A stretch of 64,000 nt of DNA from Hyphococcus sp. (lineage in GTDB: Bacteria > Pseudomonadota > Alphaproteobacteria > Caulobacterales > Parvularculaceae). Position numbers and translations under genes: made by a program. The stretch spans positions 620,001 through 684,000 of the forward strand of contig JANQRY010000008.1 of assembly GCA_028284345.1 (NCBI GenBank). The letters are read 5' to 3'. Below the pieces are notes generated by a model that saw only the letters and a program-made list of their open reading frames with translations, had not been told where the DNA came from and ran no database searches. This document shows positions 1,535 through 46,169 of this stretch, one piece after another; the stretch's first letter is position 1; every line of letters starts with the position of its first letter.

Positions 1535-1927
1535 ATGGATTTAACGAAACTGCCGCTGCTGGCCGGTCTTGCGCAACGCCTTGATTTTCTGGGCGCGCGG
1601 ACATCCGTGATCGCGGAAAACATCGCCAATGCGGATACGCCGGGCTACGCCGCCCGCGACCTCGAAAAGCCCCATTTCGGGGAAATGACAAAGGCGGCGG
1701 CGCTGCGGGTTTCCGATCCGAAACATATTGCGGCCCCGGCGAGCACAAGCGCGACGTCCTATCGGGTCGTTTCGGCCCCGGACGGGGAGGCCTCGCTCAC
1801 CGGCAATGAGGTGAGCCTCGAGACCCAGGCCATGAAGCTTTCGGAGACGCGTCAGGACTATGCGCTGGCCGCAAGCCTCTACCGCAAGGGCCTCGCCATG
1901 CTGCGGCTTGCCGCCAGAGGACAGTAG
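1535..1927 (+). CDS. flgB: Flagellar basal-body rod protein FlgB
   Basis: A 130-residue proximal rod protein. The N-terminal segment contains the rod/hook signature VIAENIANADTPGYAARD and the C-terminal helix carries the usual ETQAMKLSETRQDYALAASLY pattern. An upstream in-frame codon at 1448 would add 29 residues of non-conserved sequence. The ATG at 1535 gives the normal FlgB N-terminus (MDLTKLPLLAGL) and has a purine-rich stretch just before it, so I chose it. FlgB assembles on the MS ring with FliE, FlgC, FlgF and FlgG. It is the first gene of flgB-flgC-fliE. Confidence 0.97.
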   Translation: MDLTKLPLLAGLAQRLDFLGARTSVIAENIANADTPGYAARDLEKPHFGEMTKAAALRVSDPKHIAAPASTSATSYRVVSAPDGEASLTGNEVSLETQAMKLSETRQDYALAASLYRKGLAMLRLAARGQ

Positions 1928-1950
1928 AGCGGGGCAATAAGGACTGACCG

Positions 1951-2361
1951 ATGGACGACATCAACACCGCCATGCAGATCGCCGCCTCGGGCCTTCGCGC
2001 CCAATCCGCGCGCATTCGCATCACGGCGGAGAACATCGCCAACGCCAATTCCACCGCCGAGGCGCCGGGGCTCGACCCCTATCGCCGACAGGTGCCGGTC
2101 TTCACCAGCTATCTCGATCACGCGCTCGGCGCGGAAGTCGTGAAGATGACGCGCGTCACGCTTGACCCGTCGGCGTTCACCTTGCGCTTCGATCCGAGCC
2201 ATCCGGTCGCCGATGAAAACGGCTATATCGCGCTCCCCAACGTCAACCCGCTGGTGGAGATGATGGATCTGCGCGAGGCGCAGCGTTCTTATGAGGCCGG
2301 TCTCGGCGCCCTCGACACGATGCGGTCCATGGCCGCCTCGACATTGCGCATTCTGGAGTAG
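1951..2361 (+). CDS. flgC: Flagellar basal-body rod protein FlgC
   Basis: A 136-residue rod protein, the usual family length. The N-terminal [17 protein letters not shown] is the rod-protein signature with the FlgC-type extension, and [10 protein letters not shown] and the C-terminal [20 protein letters not shown] are typical FlgC segments. It starts 23 bases after flgB and ends 4 bases before fliE, so the three are almost certainly one transcript. It is exported through the flagellar type III apparatus to build the rod. Confidence 0.98.
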
Positions 2362-2365
2362 GCTG

Positions 2366-2677
2366 ATGGCGATTGATGCAACCCGGGCCGCCGAAATTTA
2401 CGCCGCCGTTGCGAAAGCCGCGGCCAATGCACCGCATACGGAAGAAGCCGCGGCGAGCGCGCCGAACTTCGCCGAGCTGGTGCAAACCGCCGTAAAAGGG
2501 GCGAGCGACAGCTTGAAAGCCGGGGAAGCCGCTGCGGCTGAGGTCGCCGCCGGCGAGGCCTCGCTCGTCGATGTGGTGACGGCCGTTTCCGCGGCCGAAG
2601 TGACGCTGGAAACCGCAATTGCCGTCAGAAACCGTGTCATTGAGGCCTATCAGGACATCCTGCGGATGCCGATTTAA
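2366..2677 (+). CDS. fliE: Flagellar hook-basal body complex protein FliE
   Basis: Starting at the ATG at 2366 it encodes 103 residues, matching FliE. The frame is open upstream inside flgC, but that part is not FliE-like. The C-terminal half ([20 protein letters not shown] then [15 protein letters not shown]) is the conserved FliE region that packs at the MS-ring/rod junction. The N-terminal half is alanine-rich. Overlapping promoter space with flgC and 4-base spacing indicate translational coupling. Confidence 0.96.
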
Positions 2678-2737
2678 GGTAGGTTTCATCGGCCCCCTCT
2701 CGGTCTATAATCCTCCCTTTACCGGGGAGGATGTCAG

Positions 2738-3178
2738 ATGAAACAACTCTCAGTAATCGCAGCGCCCGTGTTGCTCATCGCCTGTAGCGCCGACGGCGAG
2801 GGCGCGCCGGGCGAAGGAACGCCCATCAACAAGCCGGCCATGGCGGACTGTCCCGTGATCGACAGCCGCGACTGGACGGCTTGGGTCGACGCAGAGCCCG
2901 GCCCTGATGCGCCGACGCTGCATATTCGCGGGACCGTGGAGCTGCCGACGCCCGGTTACGACTATGCGTGGCGCGTCGGGCTCGCCGACCGCGCCCTGCC
3001 GCCGGGTCAGCACATGCATCTCGATTTCACCGCGCCGGACGGCATGGTCGCGCAGGTTATCACGTCTGTCGATGTCGCCTATGAAGGGGACGCAACGTTT
3101 GCGGAATACCGCATGATCCGCGTCAAATGCGGCGACAAGGCGCTGGCGGAAATCACCGACGTGCCGGTGGCGCGGTAG
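2738..3178 (+). CDS. Small putative lipoprotein
   Basis: A 146-residue protein with a signal peptide and the lipobox LIAC (cysteine about residue 17), preceded by a strong ribosome binding site (GGGGAGGAT). The mature part has two further cysteines (DCPVIDSRDW and IRVKCGDK) that could form a disulfide, and a central beta-rich segment. I do not recognise the family. It lies 60 bases after fliE on the same strand and before the repeat pair that separates it from fliQ, so a flagellar role is possible but not shown. Confidence 0.75.
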   Translation: MKQLSVIAAPVLLIACSADGEGAPGEGTPINKPAMADCPVIDSRDWTAWVDAEPGPDAPTLHIRGTVELPTPGYDYAWRVGLADRALPPGQHMHLDFTAPDGMVAQVITSVDVAYEGDATFAEYRMIRVKCGDKALAEITDVPVAR

Positions 3179-3193
3179 GCGCAGGGGCTCCTT

Positions 3194-3340
3194 ACCTCCC
3201 CCTTGAGGGGAGGTGGAAATTCGCTTGCGAATTTCGGGTGGGGGGTAACCTCGCGTCATGTTGCGCTGGTAAAAACCTCGGGAACCGAACCCCCTCCCGA
3301 AAGCGCTGTCGCGCTTTCGACCTCCCCTCAAGGGGGAGGT
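3194..3340. repeat. Inverted pair of palindromic intergenic elements
   Basis: Two roughly 50-base copies (3194-3246 and 3290-3340) lie in opposite orientation about 43 bases apart. Each has an outer hairpin made from ACCTCCCCCTTGAGGGGAGG and an inner hairpin. The inner hairpin differs between copies (GAAATTCGCTTGCGAATTTC versus a GAAAGCG/CGCTTTC stem) but remains self-complementary in both. The layout resembles a REP/BIME-type element. It sits between the lipoprotein gene and the fliQ promoter. Confidence 0.85.
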
Positions 3341-3353
3341 GAAAACACGTCCT

Positions 3354-3369
3354 TTAACCCGCCCTTAAC
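3354..3369 (+). promoter_or_regulatory. Candidate CtrA box upstream of fliQ
   Basis: A perfect TTAA-N7-TTAAC match (spacer CCCGCCC) ending 66 bases before the fliQ ATG at 3436. Another TTTTAACC lies at about 3385-3392. CtrA activation of the fliQR operon is known in Caulobacter. Here the match is seen and the regulation is inferred. Confidence 0.65.
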
Positions 3370-3435
3370 CCAATCCTCACGGGGTTTTAACCACGCGCCC
3401 GGCAATATCTGCCCAGTTTGGGAGCCGGGTCCGAC

Positions 3436-3711
3436 ATGGGCGCAGAGATACTGGAAATTGCGCGCGAAGCCTTCTGGGTAACGCTGCTGGTCGCCGGGCC
3501 CGCCATGCTGGCGGGGCTGGTCGTCGGTCTCGCCATTGCGCTTCTTCAGGCCCTGACCCAGGTGCAGGAACTGACCCTCGTTTTCGTGCCGCGCATCGTT
3601 GTGATGTTCATCGTCATCGCCATTTGCCTGCCCTTCATGGGCGGCGCGCTGGGGCGGTTTGCGATTGAGCTTTACGGGCGCATCGCCGCGGGCGGCGTCG
3701 GCGCGGGATAG
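3436..3711 (+). CDS. fliQ: Flagellar biosynthesis protein FliQ
   Basis: A 91-residue protein with two hydrophobic hairpin segments (about residues 12-34 and 48-70) and the FliQ signature in between (ALLQALTQVQELTLVFVPRI). The frame opens at a TTG at 3418. I prefer the ATG at 3436, with GGAG 11 bases upstream, which gives the family length. FliQ forms part of the FliPQR export gate in the inner membrane. Gene order fliQ-fliR-flhB follows with 7- and 4-base spacings. Confidence 0.97.
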   Translation: MGAEILEIAREAFWVTLLVAGPAMLAGLVVGLAIALLQALTQVQELTLVFVPRIVVMFIVIAICLPFMGGALGRFAIELYGRIAAGGVGAG

Positions 3712-3718
3712 CGCGCCC

Positions 3719-4489
3719 ATGACCTTCAACCTCACCGCCCTTCCCGTCGACGCCTTCATCATCTTCGCCGTGTTCGCCCGGGTCGGCGCGCTGTTCATGA
3801 CGGCGCCGGCGCTCGGCGATTTCACGCTGTCCCCGCGCATTCGCCTCGCTGCGGCGCTCGCCGTCACCGCCGCGCTGGCGCCGGTGGCCGCGCCCATGTT
3901 TCCCGACTGGGCGCGCTCGGGAAGCGTCGGCCCCATGGCGGCCCTCATTATCGGCGAGGTTCTCGCCGGCGTGTTTCTCGGTCTTGCGGCGCGGATCGTT
4001 ATGGCGGCGCTTAACGTCGCCGGACAGATCATCGCCTTTCAGATGGGCCTGTCGCTCGCCCAGATTTTCGATCCGACGCAGGAATTGCAGGGCGCCATTA
4101 TCGGCGGCTTTCTCGCCGTTCTCGGCACGACGATGATCTTCGCCACGGACCTCCATCACATGTTGCTGGCGGCCCTTGGGGATTCCTACACGCTGATGCG
4201 CCCCGGCGCGCTGCCGAATTTCGGCGACATGTCGACTGTCATGGTCGACACGCTGTCACAATCCTTCTCGCTGGGCTTGCGCCTTGCCGCGCCTTTCGTC
4301 CTGTTCGGCATCGTCTTCTACGTGGGCGCCGGCGTGCTCAACCGGCTGATGCCCCAGGCGCAGGTTTTCTTCATGCTGATGCCGGCGAATATCGTGCTGG
4401 GCATTGTGCTCCTGATGCTGACGACCGGCCTCGTCATGACGCTGTTCCTCGAACGGTTCGAAGCCCACCTCGCGCAGTTTCTGAAGTAA
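3719..4489 (+). CDS. fliR: Flagellar biosynthesis protein FliR
   Basis: A 256-residue, six-segment membrane protein with the typical FliR start (NLTALPVDAFIIFAVFARVG), central AFQMGLSLAQIFDPTQELQG and C-terminal LMLTTGLVMTLFLERFE. The open frame begins earlier at 3659 inside fliQ. The ATG at 3719, 7 bases after the fliQ stop, gives the normal length. FliR is the outermost subunit of the FliPQR export gate and contacts FlhB, encoded 4 bases downstream. Confidence 0.97.
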   Translation: MTFNLTALPVDAFIIFAVFARVGALFMTAPALGDFTLSPRIRLAAALAVTAALAPVAAPMFPDWARSGSVGPMAALIIGEVLAGVFLGLAARIVMAALNVAGQIIAFQMGLSLAQIFDPTQELQGAIIGGFLAVLGTTMIFATDLHHMLLAALGDSYTLMRPGALPNFGDMSTVMVDTLSQSFSLGLRLAAPFVLFGIVFYVGAGVLNRLMPQAQVFFMLMPANIVLGIVLLMLTTGLVMTLFLERFEAHLAQFLK

Positions 4490-4493
4490 CGCC

Positions 4494-5573
4494 ATGGCTG
4501 AGCAACAGGACAATGCACAGCGTACGGAGGAGCCGACCCCGAAGCGGCTCGCCGACGCGCGCAAGAAAGGTGACGCGCCGAAAAGCCAGGAGGCGATCGC
4601 CGCGGCCATGCTCGCCGCCGGCGCGCTGGCGCTTGCCCTGTTCGGCGGCCCGGCGGCGAAAGACGTGATGGCGGCGGGTGCCTCGTTTCTGGATCATCCG
4701 CACCAGTTTCTCGCCGACGGTGCGTCGCTGCAGCGGTTGTGGGCCGCGGTCGCCTGGCGTCTCGCGGCGGCCCTCGGCCTCATCGGCGCAATGGTTTTCG
4801 CTATCGCTATTCTCGCCAATGTGGGACAGGCGCGGCCCGTCTTCACTGCAAGCCGCATCAAGCCGGAACTGTCGAAAATCTCGCCCATGGCCGGCTTCAA
4901 GCGGATATTCGGGCCCTCGGGGCTTTTCAATTTCGCCAAGGGCGTCGGCAAGCTGGCGATTGTCGGCGCGCTCCTCTTCTTCGCCCTGTGGCCGGAGCGG
5001 GATTTGCTCGCCGCGTCCCTCGCTGCCGATGCGAAAACGCTCCTGATCCTGGTGAAAGACCTGTCGCTGCGCCTGATCGGTCTTGCGGTCGTCGCCATGA
5101 TCGTCATCGCCGCGTTCGACTACGCGTTTCAGCGCCACACTTGGAAACAGCGCCTCAGGATGACCCGGGACGAAGTGCGCCGGGAGCTGAAAGAAACCGA
5201 AGGCGATCCGCAGGTCAAAGGCCGGTTGCGCCAGATGCGCGAAAGCCGGATGCGCAAGCGCATGCTTGCGGCGGTCAAGGACTCAACCGTCCTCATTATG
5301 AACCCGACCCACTACGCCGTGGCGCTTGGCTATGAGATGGGGTCGGAAACGGCGCCGGTCTGTCTCGCCAAGGGCGTCGACGATCTTGCGCTGCGCATGC
5401 GAGAGACGGCGGAAGAGCACAGCGTGCCAGTTGTTGAAAACCCGCCGCTCGCCCGCGCGCTCTACGCGTCGGCGGAAGTGGACGAGGAAATCCCCCTCGA
5501 TCATTTTGAGGCGGTGGCCAAGATTATCGGCTTTATTATGACGAAGGCCAGCCTGGGGTCATCCCGGGGCTGA
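4494..5573 (+). CDS. flhB: Flagellar biosynthesis protein FlhB
   Basis: 359 residues, the normal length. It has the FlhB N-terminus (AQRTEEPTPKRLADARKKG), four hydrophobic segments between about residues 30 and 220, the linker MTRDEVRRELKETEGDPQVK, and the autocleavage site NPTH at residues 270-273 (codons 5301-5312). The cytosolic half then continues with the CLAKGVDDLALRMRE and NPPLARALY motifs. FlhB switches export from rod/hook to filament substrates. The last few codons and the stop lie inside a palindromic repeat (5558-5680), so the C-terminal tail GSSRG is repeat-encoded. Confidence 0.98.
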   Translation: MAEQQDNAQRTEEPTPKRLADARKKGDAPKSQEAIAAAMLAAGALALALFGGPAAKDVMAAGASFLDHPHQFLADGASLQRLWAAVAWRLAAALGLIGAMVFAIAILANVGQARPVFTASRIKPELSKISPMAGFKRIFGPSGLFNFAKGVGKLAIVGALLFFALWPERDLLAASLAADAKTLLILVKDLSLRLIGLAVVAMIVIAAFDYAFQRHTWKQRLRMTRDEVRRELKETEGDPQVKGRLRQMRESRMRKRMLAAVKDSTVLIMNPTHYAVALGYEMGSETAPVCLAKGVDDLALRMRETAEEHSVPVVENPPLARALYASAEVDEEIPLDHFEAVAKIIGFIMTKASLGSSRG

Positions 5574-5680
5574 CGAAGTCAGAACCCGGGATCCATGGCG
5601 CCAAGTCTCGGCAGTTTGGAAGGGTTGAAAAGTTGCACCATGGATTCCGGGTTCGCGACGTTGTCGCGCCCCGGAATGAC
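5558..5680. repeat. Palindromic intergenic repeat overlapping the flhB stop
   Basis: GTCATCCCGGGGCTGACG...AACCCGGGATCCATGG on the left and CACCATGGATTCCGGGTTCG...CCCCGGAATGAC on the right form a large imperfect inverted repeat with internal hairpins. The outer arms (GTCATCCCGG/CCGGAATGAC) match those of two other loci in the window (11061-11098 and 16581-16675), defining a dispersed REP-like family. It may also act as a terminator between convergent flhB and the barrel gene. Confidence 0.8.
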
Positions 5681-5690
5681 CGGCGCAGCG

Positions 5691-6782
5691 CTAAAAAGCC
5701 TTCTGCCACCCCACTGTCAGGGTCAAATCCGTTTCAAGCTGCGGGCCGTTGAGCTTGCGGTAAAGGGGTTTGCCGACTTCGATGGCGAGGCGGTGGCCTT
5801 TCAGAAGGCCCTCCTGTCCCGCGAGATTGATCCCGACAAGAGCCTCGATCACTTCGCCGCCGTGGTTTTCCGGATCCGCCGTCTGCACCGGCGCGGCGAT
5901 CATCGGGTCTCGCCCGTCGATCTCGCCAATGGTCGCGCCGCGCAGGCGCGCGGAAACGGAAATCCATGGGGCCGGTTCATAGGCCGCCCAGGCGGTCGCT
6001 TCGTATTTGTCGCCGAAGGCGTAGCCGGCGTCGTTGCGCTCAAGGCGGATAACGCCGGAGACCTGACCGCCAATGCTTGCTTTGCCGATGCGCGTGCGCG
6101 CCGTCGCCGACGGTTTGAGATCGAACGTGCCGGAGCCGAGCTGCATCGGATAGGGCAGGCGCGGCGACGGCGTAGTTCCCATGGGCGTCAGGATCTGGTC
6201 GTGCTCGCCGATGGAGCCCGTGGGAATGGAAAGGCCAAGCGCGATATTGATCTGGCGATGCTCGTATGAGCCGTCGTCGAGGCCGACAATGGCGGCAAGC
6301 GTGGTATCGCCGAAGCCCGCCGTCTCCGTGGTGAAGCCGCCGAGGCGCGTTGTCCCGGCCGGCCCCTGAAAGGTGACGTGGTCCATCTCCTGGGTCATGT
6401 ACATGCCCATAGCCATGAGCGTGATGCGGTCGGTGAGGCCGTACATGACGCCGGCCATGTGCATCTTCATGGTCATGTCGGTGGGAACGACGCGCAGGGT
6501 CGGCGGCGGCGCGAACGGGTTGGGCGCCGTTGTGACAATATCTTCCGGACTCAGACGATCGGTCCCGTCGCGGTTGCCGGCCATATCCATAAAGCCGAAA
6601 CGATAGGAGGTCATCCATTCGCCTTGCTTGTGGCGATGGTCGGCCATGACGCCGATGGGCGCGTGATCGGTTGCGTAGGTAACATTGCCGCCGTCGCCGT
6701 CATGGGCGTTGGCGGGCGCGAATACAGGCAGGCACAATAGGGCAAAAAGCGCCGCTCGGGGCGCTGCGGACAGGGGTTTCAT
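5691..6782 (-). CDS. Putative outer-membrane beta-barrel protein, Met/His-rich
   Basis: A 363-residue protein with a clear signal peptide (cleavage after FAPANA, about residue 26), alternating beta strands and a C-terminal aromatic residue (VGWQKAF), all typical of outer-membrane barrels. Residues about 30-60 and 100-135 are rich in His and Met (for example DMTMKMHMAG and MAMGMYMTQEMDHV). It follows a DUF2946 gene in the same direction after 61 bases. The resemblance is to barrels annotated as transporters in metal-related loci. A role with copper or another soft metal is an inference from composition and neighbour. Confidence 0.75.
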   Translation of the reverse strand: MKPLSAAPRAALFALLCLPVFAPANAHDGDGGNVTYATDHAPIGVMADHRHKQGEWMTSYRFGFMDMAGNRDGTDRLSPEDIVTTAPNPFAPPPTLRVVPTDMTMKMHMAGVMYGLTDRITLMAMGMYMTQEMDHVTFQGPAGTTRLGGFTTETAGFGDTTLAAIVGLDDGSYEHRQINIALGLSIPTGSIGEHDQILTPMGTTPSPRLPYPMQLGSGTFDLKPSATARTRIGKASIGGQVSGVIRLERNDAGYAFGDKYEATAWAAYEPAPWISVSARLRGATIGEIDGRDPMIAAPVQTADPENHGGEVIEALVGINLAGQEGLLKGHRLAIEVGKPLYRKLNGPQLETDLTLTVGWQKAF

Positions 6783-6843
6783 GAAAATCTCTCAAAGCAA
6801 TAGGCGCATCGGGACGGCCCCGATGCGGGGGAAGGCGACGAAA

Positions 6844-7257
6844 CTAGATTGCGGTGAGAGAGATCGGCGGCGCGCGTAAGCCCAGCGGCGGTCCGTGTAC
6901 GGAAGAGTGGGCATTGTCGCGCGCTTTCGCGGGCTCGCGGCGGGCGTCGGCGAATGCAATCGCCAGCGCAAGCTGCGGGCCGGGCGCCAGGGCGCAGGTG
7001 GAGACAACGCAGGCGCCGCAATGGCCCTTGGCGCCGGTTTCCTCCGTCTCCCCGGAGACGTCTTCCCCGGCGAGGCGGAGCATGTCCTCAAGCGCGGCTT
7101 TCGCCTCGGGCGATACCTTGCCGGTCGGCGCGCAGATCAGGGACGCGATGTCGAAGGTCGCCGGCGCTGCGGCGGTCGCAATGGGCAGCAGCACATGGGC
7201 GGCCAGCCCCGCGACAAGCGCGAGCTTTTTCAGAACATATAGCGACGGCGCGGTCAT
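6844..7257 (-). CDS. DUF2946-like small secreted/membrane protein
   Basis: From the ATG at 7255-7257 it encodes 137 residues. The N-terminal hydrophobic segment (about residues 10-32) is followed by a Cys-containing stretch (HCGACVVSTC, about residues 92-101) and a C-terminal GPPLGLRAPPI, the layout of DUF2946 proteins. The open frame extends to 7314, but the extra residues are charged and unlike a signal sequence. It is paired with the Met/His-rich barrel. Family members are often found next to TonB or copper genes. The biochemical role is unknown. Confidence 0.65.
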   Translation of the reverse strand: MTAPSLYVLKKLALVAGLAAHVLLPIATAAAPATFDIASLICAPTGKVSPEAKAALEDMLRLAGEDVSGETEETGAKGHCGACVVSTCALAPGPQLALAIAFADARREPAKARDNAHSSVHGPPLGLRAPPISLTAI

Positions 7258-7435
7258 GACGGTGCGACTAGCGCATCCGGCGCGCCGTCCGTCAAGACGC
7301 GGGCCCTTGCGCATATCGTCGCCGTTCCTTGCGGAAAACTAACCCGGCGGGGGGCCTGGAACCGGTAGTCTCGGCCTCCGAGTCGCCCCATAGTCGCCGG
7401 TCGGAATCAGCTTTAGCTATCGCGAGAGAATCCCC

Positions 7436-10252
7436 GTGACGCCCACGGACGCCGCCCGCGCCGCCGCCGACAAGGAAGCGGAAGACATCGTTAGCGCCCT
7501 GCGCCAGAAGGCGAAGGAGGAGGCCGCCGCCGCCGATGCTGGCGGCAATCCTTTTTCGCGCAAGCGGGACAAGGCCGTAAGGAAAGAGGCGAAAAGCCCC
7601 GCGGCGCCTGCAGCGGCGTCCTCTGAAAAGCCGAAGCGGCCGCCGACGCCTGATGAAATCGTCAAGATGATGGACGAGGCCGCGGCGGCGCGCGCCAGCG
7701 AGCACGGGGGCCAGAAGCGCGCCCGCCCGGCGGCCAACGTCGCCTCGTTCTGGTTGCTCTGGGGATTTATTTTCGCCGGCCTCGGCGCCGTCGGCTATGT
7801 CGTGCTGACCGCCCGCGACACCGGCGGGCCCGGCCTTTTCATCGCCGCCGGCATCGCCCTCTTGGTCGCGCTTTTTGTCGCTGCCGCCGCCGCGCGCATG
7901 TTCTCGCCCATGCTGCTTGCGGGCGCCATGCTGCAGCGGGCCGGCGGCAAGACCGCCGAAGAGGCGGCGGAACTCGCCGGCGCGGAGATTCTCGGCGCTC
8001 TCGGTCTCGCCGAACGCGTCCTCGACGCCGACAGCGACGCCCGGCTCGTCACCCGCCGCGACGGCGTCGTCACCTACGCCAACCGCGCCTATTTCGATCT
8101 CGCCCGGGAGGCGGGCGTCATGGGCCCGGCCGGCTTGCCGCCGCGTATCGACCGGCTGTTCGCGCAACAGGGCGCGGAAGCGACCAAGGTCTTTCGCCTG
8201 TGCAAGGCGGCGAAAAGCGGCGAGGCGGCCGAAGAGGTCATCTATCAGGTGATGGGCGTCAAGGCTGGCGGCGTGCGCCGGCGCTTTGCCGTCAGCACAC
8301 GTCCTATTCGCGGCTCCGATGATCACGTCGCATGGCGTCTCGCCGAACAGCCGATCGAGGAAGACCAGCACGACGTTCTCGCCGCGTCCTATGCGGATTT
8401 TCCTGAGGCTGTCTTTGCGCTGGAAAAATCGGGACAAATCCCCTGGGCCAACGCCGCCATGCGCGACCGCCTCGGTGCCGACCGCGGCGACATTCAGCAC
8501 ATCGACGACGTGGTGCTCGGCGAGACGGGCGAGATGACGCGCGCGCTCTGGGCCGTTGACCGGACGGAGAACGCCGCGACCGTGCGCCGGCGCGACGCAG
8601 ACCCGGCGGACGCGCATCTCGTCGCCTTTCGCCGCGGCGGCGTCGGCGAGGGTTTTGTCTGCGTGCAGTTGAAAATCGACGAGCCTGACGACGCGCCCGA
8701 AGAAGTGGCGCTCTCCGGCGACATATCGGAATCGCCCTTCGGCATCGCCATCATCGACGGCGAGATCAATCGCGACGGCCGCATTCTTGAGGCCAATAAG
8801 GCGTTTACGGATGTTTTCGGCGGCAAGAAGAAAAACGCCCCGCTGGCGAAAATGTTCGCGCAGGAAACGCTGGAAGAGCTGGCGGCTGAGGCGCGGCGCA
8901 AACCCCGCGCCGGCGCCGCGCCCATGGGCGTCGAGGCGAGCGTCGGCGAAGGGGCGGACGCACGAGTGTTCGCGCTGTTCCCGCGGCCCGTGAAGCGCAA
9001 ACGCGGCTCCTACGGCCAGCGCAAGACGCTGCTTTATTCTGTCGATATTTCCGACCGCAAGCGCATGGAAGAGGACTACGCCCAGGACCAGAAACTGCGC
9101 GGCATCGGCGAGCTTGCGTCGAAGGTCGCCCATGACTTCAACAATTACCTGCAGGTGGTGTTGGGGCATTGCGAACGGCTGATGCTGAAGCATCCGGCGG
9201 GCGACCCCTCTTATCAGGAACTGATCCAGATCCGCGAAAACGCCCAGCGCGCCGCGAACACGACGAAACAGCTTCTCGCTTTTTCCCGCAAGCAGACCCT
9301 GAAGCGGGAAGTCCTGTCGATTACCGAAGTCCTGCGCGATTTCTCGCGCTTCCTTACCCGCGCCATTGGCGAAAAGGTGCAGCTCGATCTCGTCAACGGG
9401 CGCGCCCTCCCCGCCATCAAGGTCGACAAGTACCAGCTTGAAACGGCGATCATGAACCTCGCCGTCAACGCTCGCGACGCCATGGCGCCCGCCGGCGGCA
9501 AGCTGACCATCCGCACCCGGCGCATCCCGGCTGAGGAAATCCCTGACCTCAAACTGCCGAGCCTGGGCGAGACCGATCACGTGATGATTGAGGTTGCCGA
9601 CACCGGCCCCGGCGTGCCGGCGGACATCCAGGCGAAAATTTTCGACCCGTTCTTCACGACCAAGGAATCGGGCCGCGGCACGGGGCTCGGGCTGTCGACC
9701 GTTTACGGCGTCATCCGCCAGATGGGCGGGGCCATCGCGCTTGAAAGCGAGGCGGGCAAGGGCGCGGCCTTCCGCATTTACCTGCCCGAACACGACCAGG
9801 CCGAAGAGCCGGAAGACCAGCCCGCAACGCGCGCCGCGCCAAGCGGCGCCGAGCCTGCGGACCTTACCGGCGCAGGGCGCATTCTCGTGGTGGAAGACGA
9901 GGATTCGGTGCGCAACTTTGTTCTCGCGACCCTCGGGGATTGCGGTTATGAAATCACCGAGGCCGAAGACGGCGAGGATGCGCTGGAAGTGCTGGAAGAA
10001 GACGGCGCCGATTTCGACCTTGTTCTCTCCGACGTGATGATGAACGTCATGGACGGGCCGACCTTCGTCGCCGAGGCGCGCGAGAAATTCGGCCTGAAAG
10101 CCAAGGTGATCTTCATGTCGGCCTATGCGGAAGCGGCCGTCCGCGACCAGCTCGACCAGATTGAGGGCGCGGGCTATATTCAAAAACCCTTCACGGTGAA
10201 GGGGCTGGCGGGCATGGTCAAACAGACGCTTTATCCGCCTGCGGAAGAATAG
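7436..10252 (+). CDS. cckA: CckA-type hybrid sensor histidine kinase
   Basis: 938 residues from a GTG preceded by GAGAGAA. The order is a charged Ala/Lys-rich cytosolic N-terminus (1-100), two membrane segments (about 103-124 and 132-152), PAS-like regions (about 190-540), and HisKA with phospho-acceptor His566 in [11 protein letters not shown]. HATPase boxes follow ([30 protein letters not shown]), then a receiver domain with Asp866 in LVLSDVMMN. The stretch [20 protein letters not shown] followed by [14 protein letters not shown] strongly resembles Caulobacter CckA, which feeds ChpT and CtrA. It is longer than the 691-residue Caulobacter protein, mainly in the N-terminal and PAS region. It lies near fliQR-flhB, as I recall for Caulobacter. 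Confidence 0.9.
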
Positions 10253-15989: not shown

Positions 15990-16568
15990 ATGGGCGTCAG
16001 CGCTGAGAACCGTCCGGCCATGCACGCCACGACCATCCTGACGGTCAGGCGGAACGGTGCCGTCGCCATTGGCGGCGACGGCCAGGTCAGCCTCGGCCAG
16101 ACCGTCGTGAAGGGCGATGCGCGTAAAGTTCGCCGTCTCGCCGGCGAGAAGGTGATCTGCGGCTTCGCCGGAGCGACCGCCGACGCCTTCACCTTGCTCG
16201 AACGGCTCGACGCCAAGCTTGAGCAATATCCGGGGCAGCTGACGCGGGCTTCCGTTGAACTCGCCAAGGACTGGCGCACTGACCGTTACTTACGCCGGCT
16301 CGAAGCGATGATCATTGTCGCCGACAAGGACGTCACCCTGACCCTTTCCGGCGCCGGCGACGTGATCGAACCGGAGCTTGGCGTCGCGGCCATCGGATCG
16401 GGGGGCGATTTCGCCCGCGCCGCCGCCCGCGCGCTTCTCGCGGAAACGGACTTGGGCGCCGCGGAGATCGTCAAAAAAGCCATGGGCATTGCGGCGTCGA
16501 TCTGCGTTTATACGAACGATGCGTTGACGCTTGAGACGATCCCGTCGGACGAAGTGGGCGGCTCTTAG
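15990..16568 (+). CDS. hslV: ATP-dependent protease peptidase subunit HslV
   Basis: 192 residues. The catalytic N-terminal threonine aligns with Thr14 ([19 protein letters not shown]). Thirteen residues precede it, so a short propeptide must be removed, or the internal Met11 is used. Asp17 and Lys33 equivalents (GGDGQ and ARKVRRL) and the C-terminal [17 protein letters not shown] are conserved. HslV forms a double hexameric peptidase capped by HslU. hslU follows after 222 bases containing a palindromic repeat, unusually far for this pair. Confidence 0.97.
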
Positions 16569-16790: not shown

Positions 16791-18098
16791 ATGTCCGATT
16801 ATTCGCCGCGTGAAATTGTTTCCGAGCTTGACCGCTACATCGTCGGCCAGAAGGCGGCCAAGCGCGCCGTGGCGATTGCCCTCAGGAACCGCTGGCGGCG
16901 ACGCCGGGTCGAGCCGCCTTTGAGCGAGGAAATCACCCCGAAAAACATCCTCATGATCGGGCCCACCGGCGTCGGCAAGACGGAGATTTCGCGCCGCCTG
17001 GCGCGGCTTGCGGGCGCGCCGTTTTTGAAGGTCGAGGCGACGAAATTCACCGAGGTCGGTTATGTGGGCCGCGACGTAGATTCCATCGTTCGCGACCTCG
17101 TTGAAATCGCCGTCGGCCTTGTGCGCGAGCAAAAGCGCGAGGATGTAAGGGCCGCTGCGGCGACGGCGGCGGAGGACCGCGTGCTCGACGCGCTGGTCGG
17201 CGCGTCCGGCGGCGACGCGGCGCGCGACCGCTTCCGGAAAATGCTGCGCGCCGGCGAACTCGACGATCGTGAAATCGAACTTGAATTGCGCGACAGCCCC
17301 CGCGGCGCACCGCAATTTGAGATCCCCGGCATGCCCGGCTCGCAGATGAGCATGATCAATCTCTCGGACATGCTCGGCAAAGCGTTTCAGGGCCCGCGCA
17401 CGACGAAACGCATCAAGGTAAAGGACGCATACGAACCATTGGTTGCCGAAGAATCCGACAATCTCGTTGATGATGAAGCGCTGGCGCGCGACGCCGTCGC
17501 GCTGGCGGAAAATGACGGCATCGTCTTTCTCGATGAAATCGACAAGATCGCCCGGGGCGCGGAGCGCGGCGGCGCCGATGTTTCCCGCGAAGGGGTGCAG
17601 CGCGATCTCCTGCCGCTGATTGAAGGCGCAACGGTTGCGACCAAACACGGGCCGGTGAAAACCGACCACATTCTGTTCATCGCGTCGGGCGCGTTTCACC
17701 TGTCCAAGCCGTCCGACCTCTTGCCGGAGCTTCAGGGGCGTTTGCCGATCCGGGTCGAGCTGGACGCGCTATCCCGCGATGATCTGCGCCGCATTCTTGT
17801 CGAGCCGGAAGCGAGCCTCATCAAGCAATACAGCGCGCTCCTCAAGACCGAGGAGATCACGCTCGAATTCACCGATGACGCTGCGGACGCCCTCGCTGAC
17901 GCCGCCGCGGCGGTCAATGCGGGCGTTGAAAATATCGGCGCGCGGCGCCTGGCGACGATCATGGAGACGGTGCTCGACGACATCTCCTTCACCGCCACCG
18001 ACCGGTCCGGGGAGACCGTCACCATCGATGCGGCCTATGTGGAAACTCGCCTCGGAGAGATCAGCCGCAACGCGGATCTGTCGAAATATATCCTTTAG
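16791..18098 (+). CDS. hslU: ATP-dependent protease ATPase subunit HslU
   Basis: A 435-residue AAA+ unfoldase. Walker [11 protein letters not shown] (from residue 57), Walker [12 protein letters not shown], the pore loop GYVGRD, the intermediate I-domain (about 110-240), and the C-terminal LSKYIL tail that docks into HslV pockets are all present. It starts [20 protein letters not shown] as in other HslU proteins. It unfolds substrates and feeds them to HslV. Confidence 0.98.
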
Positions 18099-44152: not shown

Positions 44153-44454
44153 CTTTTCCTCTCCCTGAACGCCGTCATACCCTGACGTTGACGGCGAGGA
44201 TCGGCCCGCGCCCTTAAAATTTCTTCAAATTTTACAACGCATTGGTGAAACGCCCGGTAACCCTCGAACGCCTTGCGGCGGCTGTGCTTTGCCTGTCACA
44301 GGGCGCTTTTCGCCCGGTCGCGCGCGCTGCCGCCATTGTTCCCAATGGCGGGTTTTGTGGTTAACATCGGCGAAATCCGCGCCTCGGCGCGCGCATTGGG
44401 GACGGGGCCTTTCTTGGGCCCCGCGCGCCGAGCAAGGGAAGTCGTGAGGGGTCG
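44153..44454. other. Intergenic leader of the proteasome-like operon
   Basis: 302 bases without a gene. An AT-rich stretch at about 44214-44232 could hold promoters for both directions. On the plus strand three hairpins follow: GGGCG/CGCCC at 44301-44315, CCGCCATTG-TTCC-CAATGGCGG at 44330-44351 (then GTTTTGTGG), and GGGGCC/GGCCCC at 44404-44422. The Shine-Dalgarno (TGAGGGG) is at 44444-44450. Confidence 0.6.
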
Positions 44455-45738
44455 ATGACGTCCGAAGTCGTGTTGATGAACCGCCAGGCAGTGGCGATGG
44501 CTGCGGACAGCGCCGTCACGATTTCCGGCGACCGCTATCTCAAGACCTATCAGTCGGTGGACAAGCTGTTCCCGCTGGTCGAGGGCCAGCCGGTGGCGGT
44601 GATGATCTATAACAACGCCGAAATCATGTCGACGCCGTGGGAAACGGTGATTTCCCTTTACCGCGAACAATCGCGCGGGCGGTCGATGGAAACCGTGGCC
44701 GCTTATGCGGAAGACTTTATGGCGTTCCTGTCCGGCAATCCGGACCTTTTCCCGGCGGACCATCAGGACACGGAATTTTTCAAGATGGTCGCCGTCGTTT
44801 ACACGGTGATCGCCGAGGAGTTCGACTATCAGGTCGAACAGTTCAAACAGTCGAACGCCGGGCGCACCACCGATCATGTAAGCGCGATTTTCGAATATGT
44901 GGTCGGTCAGGTGCACGCCGACTATCAGCGTTATCCCGACGACAGCCCGCGCAGCGACCTGCCCTGTTTTCCCGACGGCATGGGCGAGCAGGTTCGCCGG
45001 CGTTACGGGGCGGAGATCGACCAGCTTCTCGACAGTCTGCTCGCCTCGCTCCGCAACGAATATTCGGGACTGGAGGTCAGCGAAACGACCAAATCGAAAC
45101 TGCGCGACATCGGATGCTATGCGGTTACGAAAGACGCCTTTTTTGAGCACTATACGGGCGTTGTCTTCGCCGGCTTCGGCAGTCGGGAAAAGTTCCCGTC
45201 CATGCGCTCATACCTCGCCTCGAGCGTTGTGCTCGGCATTCTGAAACGTAAGCGCGATCGCGCCGCCGACATCAACGCCGATTCCGGCCCTGTTTTTCAG
45301 CCTTTCGCCCAGGACCGGATGATCCGGACGTTTTTGACCGGCATGGACCAGCATCTGCGCATGTTTATTTTCTCGGAGTCCCTCAAGCTCTCCATGGGTC
45401 TCGTCACCGACGTGGTCGGGCGCACGCCGAACCTTTCCGACGCCCAGCGCGACAAGATCTTTAAGGACTACAGCCAGAACAATCTGCAACACGCGCTGCA
45501 CGAGTTCTTCAGGTCCATCGACAATTATCAGTATGCAGTGCATACGCGGCCGATTCTGCGCGCGGTAAACTCGCTGCCCAAGAAAGAGCTTGGCGAAACC
45601 GCGGCGTCGCTGATCAAGCTCAACTCGTTCCAGCAGAAAGTCATGCATTCGGTCGAAACGGTGGGCGGCCCGATCGACGTTGCGGTCATTACGCGCAATG
45701 GCGGGCTTGAGTGGTCCCGCGAGAAACCGGAGCTTTAG
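44455..45738 (+). CDS. Proteasome-fold Ntn-hydrolase-like protein
   Basis: 427 residues. After removal of Met1 the chain starts TSEVVLMNRQAVAMAADSAV. Thr2 would be the N-terminal nucleophile, Asp18 sits at proteasome position 17 (AADS) and Lys37 (YQSVDKLFPL) is near position 33. A glycine loop (AGFGSREKFPS, about 239-249) resembles the C-terminal GSGG region of HslV. A long helical insertion (about 60-215) makes it twice the length of HslV. It is unlike the window's own hslV in sequence. It is translationally coupled to a 142-residue gene. The fold assignment is a prediction; peptidase activity is not shown. Confidence 0.6.
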   Translation: MTSEVVLMNRQAVAMAADSAVTISGDRYLKTYQSVDKLFPLVEGQPVAVMIYNNAEIMSTPWETVISLYREQSRGRSMETVAAYAEDFMAFLSGNPDLFPADHQDTEFFKMVAVVYTVIAEEFDYQVEQFKQSNAGRTTDHVSAIFEYVVGQVHADYQRYPDDSPRSDLPCFPDGMGEQVRRRYGAEIDQLLDSLLASLRNEYSGLEVSETTKSKLRDIGCYAVTKDAFFEHYTGVVFAGFGSREKFPSMRSYLASSVVLGILKRKRDRAADINADSGPVFQPFAQDRMIRTFLTGMDQHLRMFIFSESLKLSMGLVTDVVGRTPNLSDAQRDKIFKDYSQNNLQHALHEFFRSIDNYQYAVHTRPILRAVNSLPKKELGETAASLIKLNSFQQKVMHSVETVGGPIDVAVITRNGGLEWSREKPEL

Positions 45739-45740
45739 AG

Positions 45741-46169
45741 ATGGCGGAGCGTCTGAAAGAAATCTGGTCCGGCTTTTCGGCGCAGACCGAGCGCAAGCTG
45801 ACGGGCAAGGGCGTCGACAACATCATTGTGCCCCATCGCGCCGATTACGACGCCATCGATCGGCAATTCCTGCCCGAGGACTATGAAAGTCCGGCGGAGC
45901 GGGCCTTCGCCGTTTTGCGCGCCGACCTCAAGGCCAAGGGAAAGAAATTCGCCGCCAGGCGTGACAAGGCGGGCGCGCCGCCTGCGCTGCGCACAGACGA
46001 GGCGGCGCCCGATGAAAAGGCCTGGGGCAAGGATGATTTAAATGTCGGCCTTTTATCGACGGCCATGCGGGTTGAGCGCACCGAGATCGACTATGGGCGC
46101 TTCCTGGCCTCAGACGAAGGCCGCAAGGCGCTCAAACGCACGAAGAAAAAACGCTTCGGGATTTTTTAG
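45741..46169 (+). CDS. Basic 142-residue partner of the proteasome-like protein
   Basis: Starts at the ATG two bases after the previous stop. The N-terminus (MAERLKEIWSGFSAQTERKLTG) is amphipathic. A middle region (FLPEDYESPAERAFAVLRADL then KAKGKKFAARRDKAG) is charged, and the C-terminus ends KKKRFGIF with a hydrophobic tip. No transmembrane segment or known domain is seen. The tight coupling implies joint function. A docking tail is possible by analogy with proteasome activators but this is speculation. Confidence 0.6.
   Translation: MAERLKEIWSGFSAQTERKLTGKGVDNIIVPHRADYDAIDRQFLPEDYESPAERAFAVLRADLKAKGKKFAARRDKAGAPPALRTDEAAPDEKAWGKDDLNVGLLSTAMRVERTEIDYGRFLASDEGRKALKRTKKKRFGIF

Follow-up and report, generated by a model that had tools for sequence, protein, structure and literature searches.

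A predicted PMI-4-like proteasome-fold hydrolase and its small co-occurring partner, which ends in a nearly constant C-terminal tail in Parvularculaceae

The window (the whole stretch of 64,000 nucleotides analysed here) contains a two-gene unit at 44455-46169, in which a gene encoding a 427-residue enzyme is followed, 2 bases after its stop codon, by the ATG of a gene encoding a 142-residue partner; the open reading frames are as the first-pass annotation of this DNA had described them. The unit and the features discussed with it are:

44455..45738, + strand: enzyme gene, an ORF of 427 aa that starts MTS; predicted proteasome-fold Ntn hydrolase, PMI-4-like
45741..46169, + strand: partner gene, an ORF of 142 aa with its ATG at 45741
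46134..46166, + strand: codons of the partner's C-terminal tail (KRTKKKRFGIF), a basic cluster and then an aromatic/aliphatic tip
44330..44351, + strand: terminator-like hairpin 5' of the enzyme gene, after the upstream gene; weak, from a pattern scan only
15990-16568, + strand: resident hslV, an ORF with its family match at 16023-16541; outside the two-gene unit
16791-18098, + strand: resident hslU, an ORF after hslV with the C-terminus LSKYIL; outside the two-gene unit

The ORF behind hslV is one that we take to be hslU, from sequence reading and from its position. Among the window ORFs no ATPase adjoins the two-gene unit: its upstream neighbour is presumably SelO-like and its downstream neighbours presumably encode a cytochrome c and a prephenate dehydratase, names given by sequence reading rather than by family search. 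In the window's own genome, the proteasome family PF00227 matched the resident hslV only, which rules out the enzyme as a duplicate of it. The earlier statements that a normal hslVU lies elsewhere in the window, that the enzyme is not the resident HslV and that no ATPase is adjacent thus stand. The hairpin at 44330..44351 weakly suggests that enzyme and partner may form their own transcription unit (the pattern scan found 5 hairpins, against a mean of 3.4 in shuffled sequence). Another hairpin with a T-run, resembling an intrinsic terminator, overlaps the partner's tail codons at 46141-46158, in a region that lies within shuffled expectation. The nearest named relatives of the enzyme gene are those of Marinicaulis and other Parvularculaceae (Alphaproteobacteria).

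The proteasome fold that had been read from the sequence by the first-pass annotation was recovered in an AlphaFold model of the enzyme (pLDDT 88.5, pTM 0.84; 77 homologs). Foldseek returned 248 PDB matches to this model at E <= 10 (35 at E <= 0.001), and the best 50 of the 248 are all proteasome entries (probability 1.00, E 1.4e-4 to 2.5e-3), led by a 20S proteasome at E 1.4e-4 and probability 1.00. The target-normalised TM-scores are low (0.40-0.55), as would be expected if long insertions split the proteasome fold. In a profile search of the PDB with 37 relatives, the top three matches were Thermoplasma proteasome beta at E about 0.1, which is not significant alone, and a designed protein came next at E 0.12; the alignment is collinear at both ends. 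Since the profile evidence reaches only E 0.1 with a designed protein close behind, the claim rests on the AlphaFold model, according to which the enzyme is a proteasome-fold Ntn hydrolase. The enzyme had no significant match in Pfam or NCBIfam, and single-sequence search found no solved chain; Pfam matches at E 0.07 (DEAH11 KH) and 0.12 (DUF6853) were judged to be chance, like other scattered weak matches. It does match PHROG 5990, a family without assigned function, at E 1.4e-75, and a phage relative weakly matches a PHROG labelled 'peptidase HslV family' (E 0.0033). PHROG 5990 could be annotated as a proteasome-fold Ntn hydrolase (PMI type).

The putative catalytic centre of Thr2, Asp18 and Lys37, at the positions named earlier, is invariant in the 37 aligned relatives, as are G240, G242, G404 and G405. 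Conservation of Thr2 and Asp18 had been put forward as a check: in a set of 77 aligned homologs Thr2 is present in 77/77 and both Asp18 and Lys37 in 76/77, where the single exception is a row masked at these two positions. The glycine loop noted near residue 240 is equally constant, with G240 and G242 invariant in this larger set too. These catalytic positions are assigned by sequence order, not by active-site geometry. All 12 order-level enzymes tested keep the triad, and two of them (L298 and L305, from a family designated f2) are without the G404-G405 pair. A stretch tentatively matched to the oxyanion-hole Gly47 contains no invariant glycine in the 37 sequences.

The model also places the large helical insertion that had been predicted. 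Helices 101-133, 138-158, 176-202 and 210-225 form a first insertion, which follows the first helix pair and precedes strand 234-240, and a helix at 329-372 forms a second between the C-terminal helices 299-323 and 376-398, for which the labels H3 and H4 are our own assignment. Strands 21-24 and 29-32 lie close together, without an insertion of the S3/S4 kind, and the modelled chain ends in a strand (417-422) and a short coil. Fuchs, Alva and Lupas described 22 new clusters of proteasome homologs in 2021 and used the name PMI for proteasome homologs with multiple insertions, which may hinder ring assembly (PMC8665760). Their PMI-4 (501 uncharacterised sequences from many phyla and phages) has a longer insertion after H1/H2 and a further one between H3/H4; PMI-3 carries both of these as well, and PMI-5 and PMI-6 have an insertion between S3 and S4 (PMC8665760). 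PMI-4 is the best fit for the modelled enzyme because both insertions are present, none occurs at S3/S4 and relatives occur in phages, though PMI-3 shares both insertions and the match was made by description, not against the reference HDY66466.1. The enzyme thus very likely belongs to a kind that has been described though not characterised, and a wholly new Ntn family was rejected because the 2021 description fits (PMC8665760). The first-pass suggestion of a distinct Ntn hydrolase accordingly holds with respect to the resident HslV but not in the sense of an undescribed kind. Self-compartmentalisation, which was suggested too, stays hypothetical, given that the 2021 paper sees in such insertions a possible hindrance to ring formation (PMC8665760).

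The partner gene follows this enzyme with great regularity. In a sample of 60 Parvularculaceae genomes (own genome included), it was found in 56 of the 56 that have the window's type of enzyme, a co-occurrence that had been proposed as a check on the unit. The enzyme search matched 57 of the 60 genomes, one of which (G038) was matched only by a distant cis-type copy, giving the 56. A single-sequence search found the partner in 55 of the 60, including 54 of the 56 with window-type enzymes, and the remaining two, G023 (locus L094) and G044 (L150), were recovered beside the enzyme by a profile search. Neither gene was found in G018 (66% complete) or G035, and the partner is missing from G038. The G028 assembly contains no enzyme but does have a piece of the partner where a contig ends, and G054 has enzyme fragments together with the partner. 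The partner lies 1-59 nt downstream of the enzyme in 71 measured loci, which do not represent 71 genomes because the series L083-L107 and L108-L161 overlap (same genomes); these loci come from the 78 of L083-L160, with L129 and L160 dropped and L094, L112, L150, L154 and L157 without a BLAST partner hit. In 12 of 25 family loci (25 of the 60 genomes, chosen by the analyst), the partner is present while none of nine other window neighbours was detected in the fetched stretch.

In five pairwise comparisons dN/dS was 0.03-0.12 in the enzyme gene against 0.08-0.38 in the partner gene, with dS > 1 in seven of the ten values, indicating that the partner is under purifying selection and evolves faster than the enzyme. 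Co-occurrence and purifying selection led us to reject the partner as a spurious ORF and, on these genome comparisons, enzyme and partner are a genuine two-gene unit, linked in evolution. As the first-pass annotation had stated, the partner has no known domain: it matched nothing in Pfam, NCBIfam, PADLOC or PHROG. A known defence system is not supported, as PADLOC matched neither protein.

In Parvularculaceae partners the two ends are conserved, as an N-terminal stretch (RLKxIWxGF) and a C-terminal tail, and the middle varies. The window's partner ends KRTKKKRFGIF, the hydrophobic tip after a basic stretch that had been spotted earlier and left uninterpreted. While the body of the protein diverges fast, this C-terminus (KKRFGIF / RKKFLG[IL]F) is nearly unchanged. 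A G[ILM]F end occurs in 45 of 51 Parvularculaceae partners and a final F in 49 of the 51 (L157 and L161 were left out of this set, and L112, whose partner is cut by a contig end, had no profile hit), whereas none of the 548 other ORFs in the fetched loci ends G[ILM]F.

Searches beyond the family indicate that the kind of tail is more widespread than its exact wording. In a class sample, the enzyme was present in 14 of 289 genomes (own included). Eight of the other 13 have enzymes that end soon after the last strand, and five have enzymes with a C-terminal extension of the KRKHYF type (one of these, L078, is a broken copy and another, L080, a partial one). Each of the eight short enzymes has a small gene directly next to it; seven of these genes are complete and encode a basic-aromatic C-terminus, and one runs off the contig end. 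Next to the five extended enzymes, no tailed neighbour was found among the ORFs listed. In all seven complete class-level partners further residues follow the last aromatic/aliphatic one (...GFFGLFRRK, ...GFLRRLFGAR); what is shared is thus the kind of tail and not the exact word. Two of the cis-type copies, L076 (7785-10425) and L081 (7089-9816), belong to two alphaproteobacterial families and have a common context unlike that of the window's unit: a gene of ~100 aa (NPKRPRDxNxLAKRxxDxATG) lies just upstream, and a similar gene, which we take to be HTH/IS1-like, lies downstream in both. The broken copy L078, also found as plasmid hit H22 (Hyphomicrobiales UR115), is split over two frames with internal stops and is decaying.

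We searched 200 genomes of the order after the idea of a conserved tail had formed, and among them family f226 is the sole out-of-sample test of it. Ten f226 genomes matched. Eight of these have short enzymes, 28.5-30.3% identical to the window's, and in 8/8 the enzyme is followed by a gene ending RKKFLG[IL]F or a near form (for example KKRRKFLGIF, KKKRKLFGLF and PQRKKFLGLF), at offsets from -56 to +27 nt when the first start codon is used. Four of the eight f226 partners were compared with the Parvularculaceae partner profile: without their last 12 residues they score at most 0.2 bits, and in full copies the best stretch is the tail (2.2-8.0 bits). The other two f226 genomes, of one genus (L294, L303), have cis-type enzymes (GFKWVKRKAP) beside an unrelated 99-aa neighbour. 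Among the sequences compared, only Parvularculaceae and f226 have partners with a free terminal phenylalanine.

At the DNA level, a pattern for K-R-F-G-x-F-stop had one match in the window's whole own genome, at the partner's end. A pattern for K-F-L-G-x-F-stop had one match each in nine of ten genomes and none in the tenth, and reversed-pattern controls gave 0. These ten genomes (four of f226, six of the own family) were picked for such tails, so the informative part is that nothing else in them matches: every match coincides with the 3' end of the gene that follows the enzyme, and synonymous codons differ between matches. We rejected the idea that the tail is kept merely as a DNA-level terminator because synonymous codons vary elsewhere, despite the hairpin-like overlap at 46141-46158 in the window.

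Several more distant relatives depart from this arrangement. Family f2 contributes four loci in three genomes, where the enzyme has no tail of its own and the small ORF that follows it does not end in this tail either. At these loci (L298, L305, L307 and L308), the enzymes are divergent and the small ORFs are coupled to them; in L307 and L308 these ORFs encode a basic-tryptophan stretch in their interior (RRSLWAILSGK, RRSRPLWARLTRR). In a phylum sample, 11 of 398 genomes matched, own and G001 included: G248, G495, G675 and G449 are cis-type, G514 ends KRKDM..., G512 is neither, G476 and G581 belong to f2, and G498 is a fragment. At the level of loci, the phylum relative L254 has neither a cis tail nor a partner and L251 ends KRKDM... 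without HYF. Left out of the locus reading were G778, the second match in G006, G137 and G498.

The enzymes read from phages and plasmids carry a basic-aromatic C-terminus in cis. Relatives occur in 13 of 50,697 phage records (E 0.01) and 10 of 72,556 plasmid records (E 0.001), and 167 confirmed relatives were found on viral contigs. The C-termini of 80 of these 167 were read, 72 by regular expression and 8 by eye (KRKQYF, KRKHFF, RRKQYF), and all 80 are basic-aromatic; no tailed partner was noticed beside the phage and plasmid enzymes that were read. In a tree of 50 enzymes, which holds no f226 row, the cis-tailed rows and L254 group together behind a strongly supported branch (100/99). Since the cis-tailed rows share one branch, the contrast between tails in cis and in trans reflects one deep split rather than repeated gains and supplies few independent observations.

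The surroundings of the mobile copies vary. Two plasmid relatives, L162 (Mesorhizobium, 1733-6437) and L163 (Rhizobium, 4001-9187), lie about 1.2-1.5 kb from a gene annotated with a multiubiquitin domain. An E1-like gene of the ThiF family is found at a distance of 2-2.6 kb, and the ThiF proteins match PADLOC E1-E2 models. Such a ubiquitin-like conjugation set was seen in 2 of 4 plasmid regions and 0 of 3 phage regions viewed and could be there by chance. In three tailed-phage regions, L165 (4001-5296), L166 (4001-5203) and L167 (3001-4251), a cis-type enzyme lies near holin/lysis genes. In Streptococcus satellite phages (among phage hits H6 and H8-H13), the match stops 54-233 bases short of the record end in 6 of the 7 records listed. 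The vicinity of holin/lysis genes and the ends of elements are frequent sites of cargo genes. An accessory or defence role for the phage-borne enzymes is possible.

Our preferred reading, which we hold tentatively, is that the unit may pair a PMI-4-type N-terminal-threonine hydrolase with a dedicated small regulator that docks by its tail. Removal of Met1 would leave Thr2 as the nucleophile. The partner's tail (the basic cluster and, in two families, the terminal F-L-G-[IL]-F) would fit into a groove, either on the enzyme itself or on an adjoining subunit, in the manner of the HslU tail at HslV and HbYX tails at the 20S proteasome, on which this step is modelled. Docking would activate the enzyme or else keep the partner on it, activation by the partner being plausible, and the variable body would select the substrate or the location. 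In phage and plasmid relatives, the enzyme's own RKHYF-type C-terminus would serve the same need in cis. As no ATPase motor would be needed, the enzyme would act on unfolded segments, on peptides or on one particular protein.

Several observations lead us to favour docking. The strongest regularity is that the tail stays with the enzyme even where the remainder of the partner has changed beyond recognition, for which the simplest reading is that the enzyme, or a constant binder of it, recognises the tail. The tail is kept in f226, where no other likeness between the partners was detected; the partner is constant in 56/56 genomes, also where other neighbours were not detected; and tail-less class enzymes have a tailed neighbour, while viral relatives have the tail in cis. 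Weighing against docking are the f2 loci without a tail, L254 without tail or partner, and the class-level tails that run on past the tip. We also modelled a read-through fusion of enzyme and partner from L117 (pLDDT 80.3, pTM 0.70), in which the partner is mostly of low confidence (block means 36-80, no error matrix), so the model gives docking no structural support. It is also conceivable, if somewhat doubtful, that the tail is part of a plug-in code, in which an RKKFLG[IL]F chain end would fit an ATPase-free proteasome-fold hydrolase, small carriers with no other detectable likeness would be swappable in evolution, and phages and plasmids would carry the plug in cis.

The main rival holds that the partner is a membrane tether, with a MinD-like membrane-targeting C-terminus and an N-terminal part that holds the enzyme at the inner membrane, and we consider it unlikely. 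The class-level tails (RKKGFLRRLFGAR, KKKRGFFGWLFGR and KKKRRGFFGLFRRK) are close to the E. coli MinD tag KGFLKRLFGG, as given in a passage of PMC5471200. Like that tag, the partner tail is a basic and aromatic C-terminal peptide of matching composition, and such composition is rare, occurring in 8 of 542 background ORFs (549 ORFs minus 7 partners) versus 7/7 class-level and 24/24 family partners, by criteria set after the tails had been inspected. Parvularculaceae and f226, however, use an almost invariant tail word that has no second match in the genomes searched, a specificity beyond what an amphipathic anchor calls for. For the window's tail, the helical moment comes to a modest 0.31, and the stretch that scores best does so through its charge and omits the hydrophobic tip. 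The tether would also require the enzyme-binding part to be the unalignable part of the partner.

A second rival, in our judgement rather improbable, makes the partner the enzyme's own substrate, with the tail as a recognition or cleavage sequence comparable to that of connectase. A processing site does look like this, one short constant word in a protein that can vary elsewhere, and connectase is a proteasome homolog that acts as a specific protein ligase (PMC8665760). Yet phage and plasmid enzymes bear the basic-aromatic word themselves, with no tailed partner seen alongside, and in Parvularculaceae conservation of the partner extends to an N-terminal stretch. That the genes are merely co-transcribed, the partner working elsewhere and its tail binding another protein, would agree with the want of physical support for contact in the L117 fusion model but is very unlikely, because the linkage persists where other window neighbours were not detected and in families whose partners cannot be aligned.

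What is new here is the partner and its tail word. The main text of PMC8665760 gives the PMI types no genomic context hinting at function and no function or interactor, and no dedicated partner or tail word for them came up in that paper or in searches of the open-access literature (preprints outside their scope). If the plug-in reading is true, this would be the first dedicated partner for PMI types, as far as the searched open-access literature shows. A conserved partner with a short peptide tail would offer a first handle on PMI-4, among the most numerous PMI types. If the tail docks, a proteasome relative would be under ATP-independent control by small proteins that can be exchanged for one another, which would bear on the origin of ATPase-driven proteolysis from simpler forms.

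HslV is typically about 175-200 residues long, matches PF00227 and has hslU adjoining. The enzyme shares the predicted fold and the catalytic residues of the resident HslV, which is less than half as long, matches PF00227 and has an AAA+ ATPase as its partner; the enzyme, in contrast, has 427 residues, no PF00227 match, no adjacent hslU and a 142-residue partner in which no domain was detected. Passages of PMC6429459 and PMC4106860 report that HslV is activated by C-terminal HslU peptides, that five of the last six residues of the Leishmania HslU tail are essential for this (PMC6429459) and that an aromatic residue of the tail matters (PMC4106860). Activation by a partner's C-terminal tail is thus a fact for HslV and HslU and a proposal for the enzyme and its partner. 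Anbu differs from the enzyme in having a proteasome family match and a C-terminal helix H5, neither of which was found for the enzyme or in its model. HbYX activators of the 20S proteasome likewise present a short C-terminal word, read with its free carboxylate according to excerpts of PMC13022661 and PMC11475706, as we infer for the partner; HbYX denotes a hydrophobic-Tyr-X end, whereas the partner is without a penultimate Tyr and ends G-I-F (the family word being G-[IL]-F after a basic cluster). Connectase is likewise a proteasome-fold enzyme outside the ring proteases and is highly specific, but it is archaeal, is without the first helix pair that the enzyme model has and bears its insertion elsewhere (PMC8665760). 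The best fit remains PMI-4, which has the same Thr/Asp/Lys proteasome core, an insertion after the first helix pair, another between the second pair and a distribution over many phyla and phages; and whereas PMC8665760 found no informative context for that kind, the window's unit adds a conserved partner gene.
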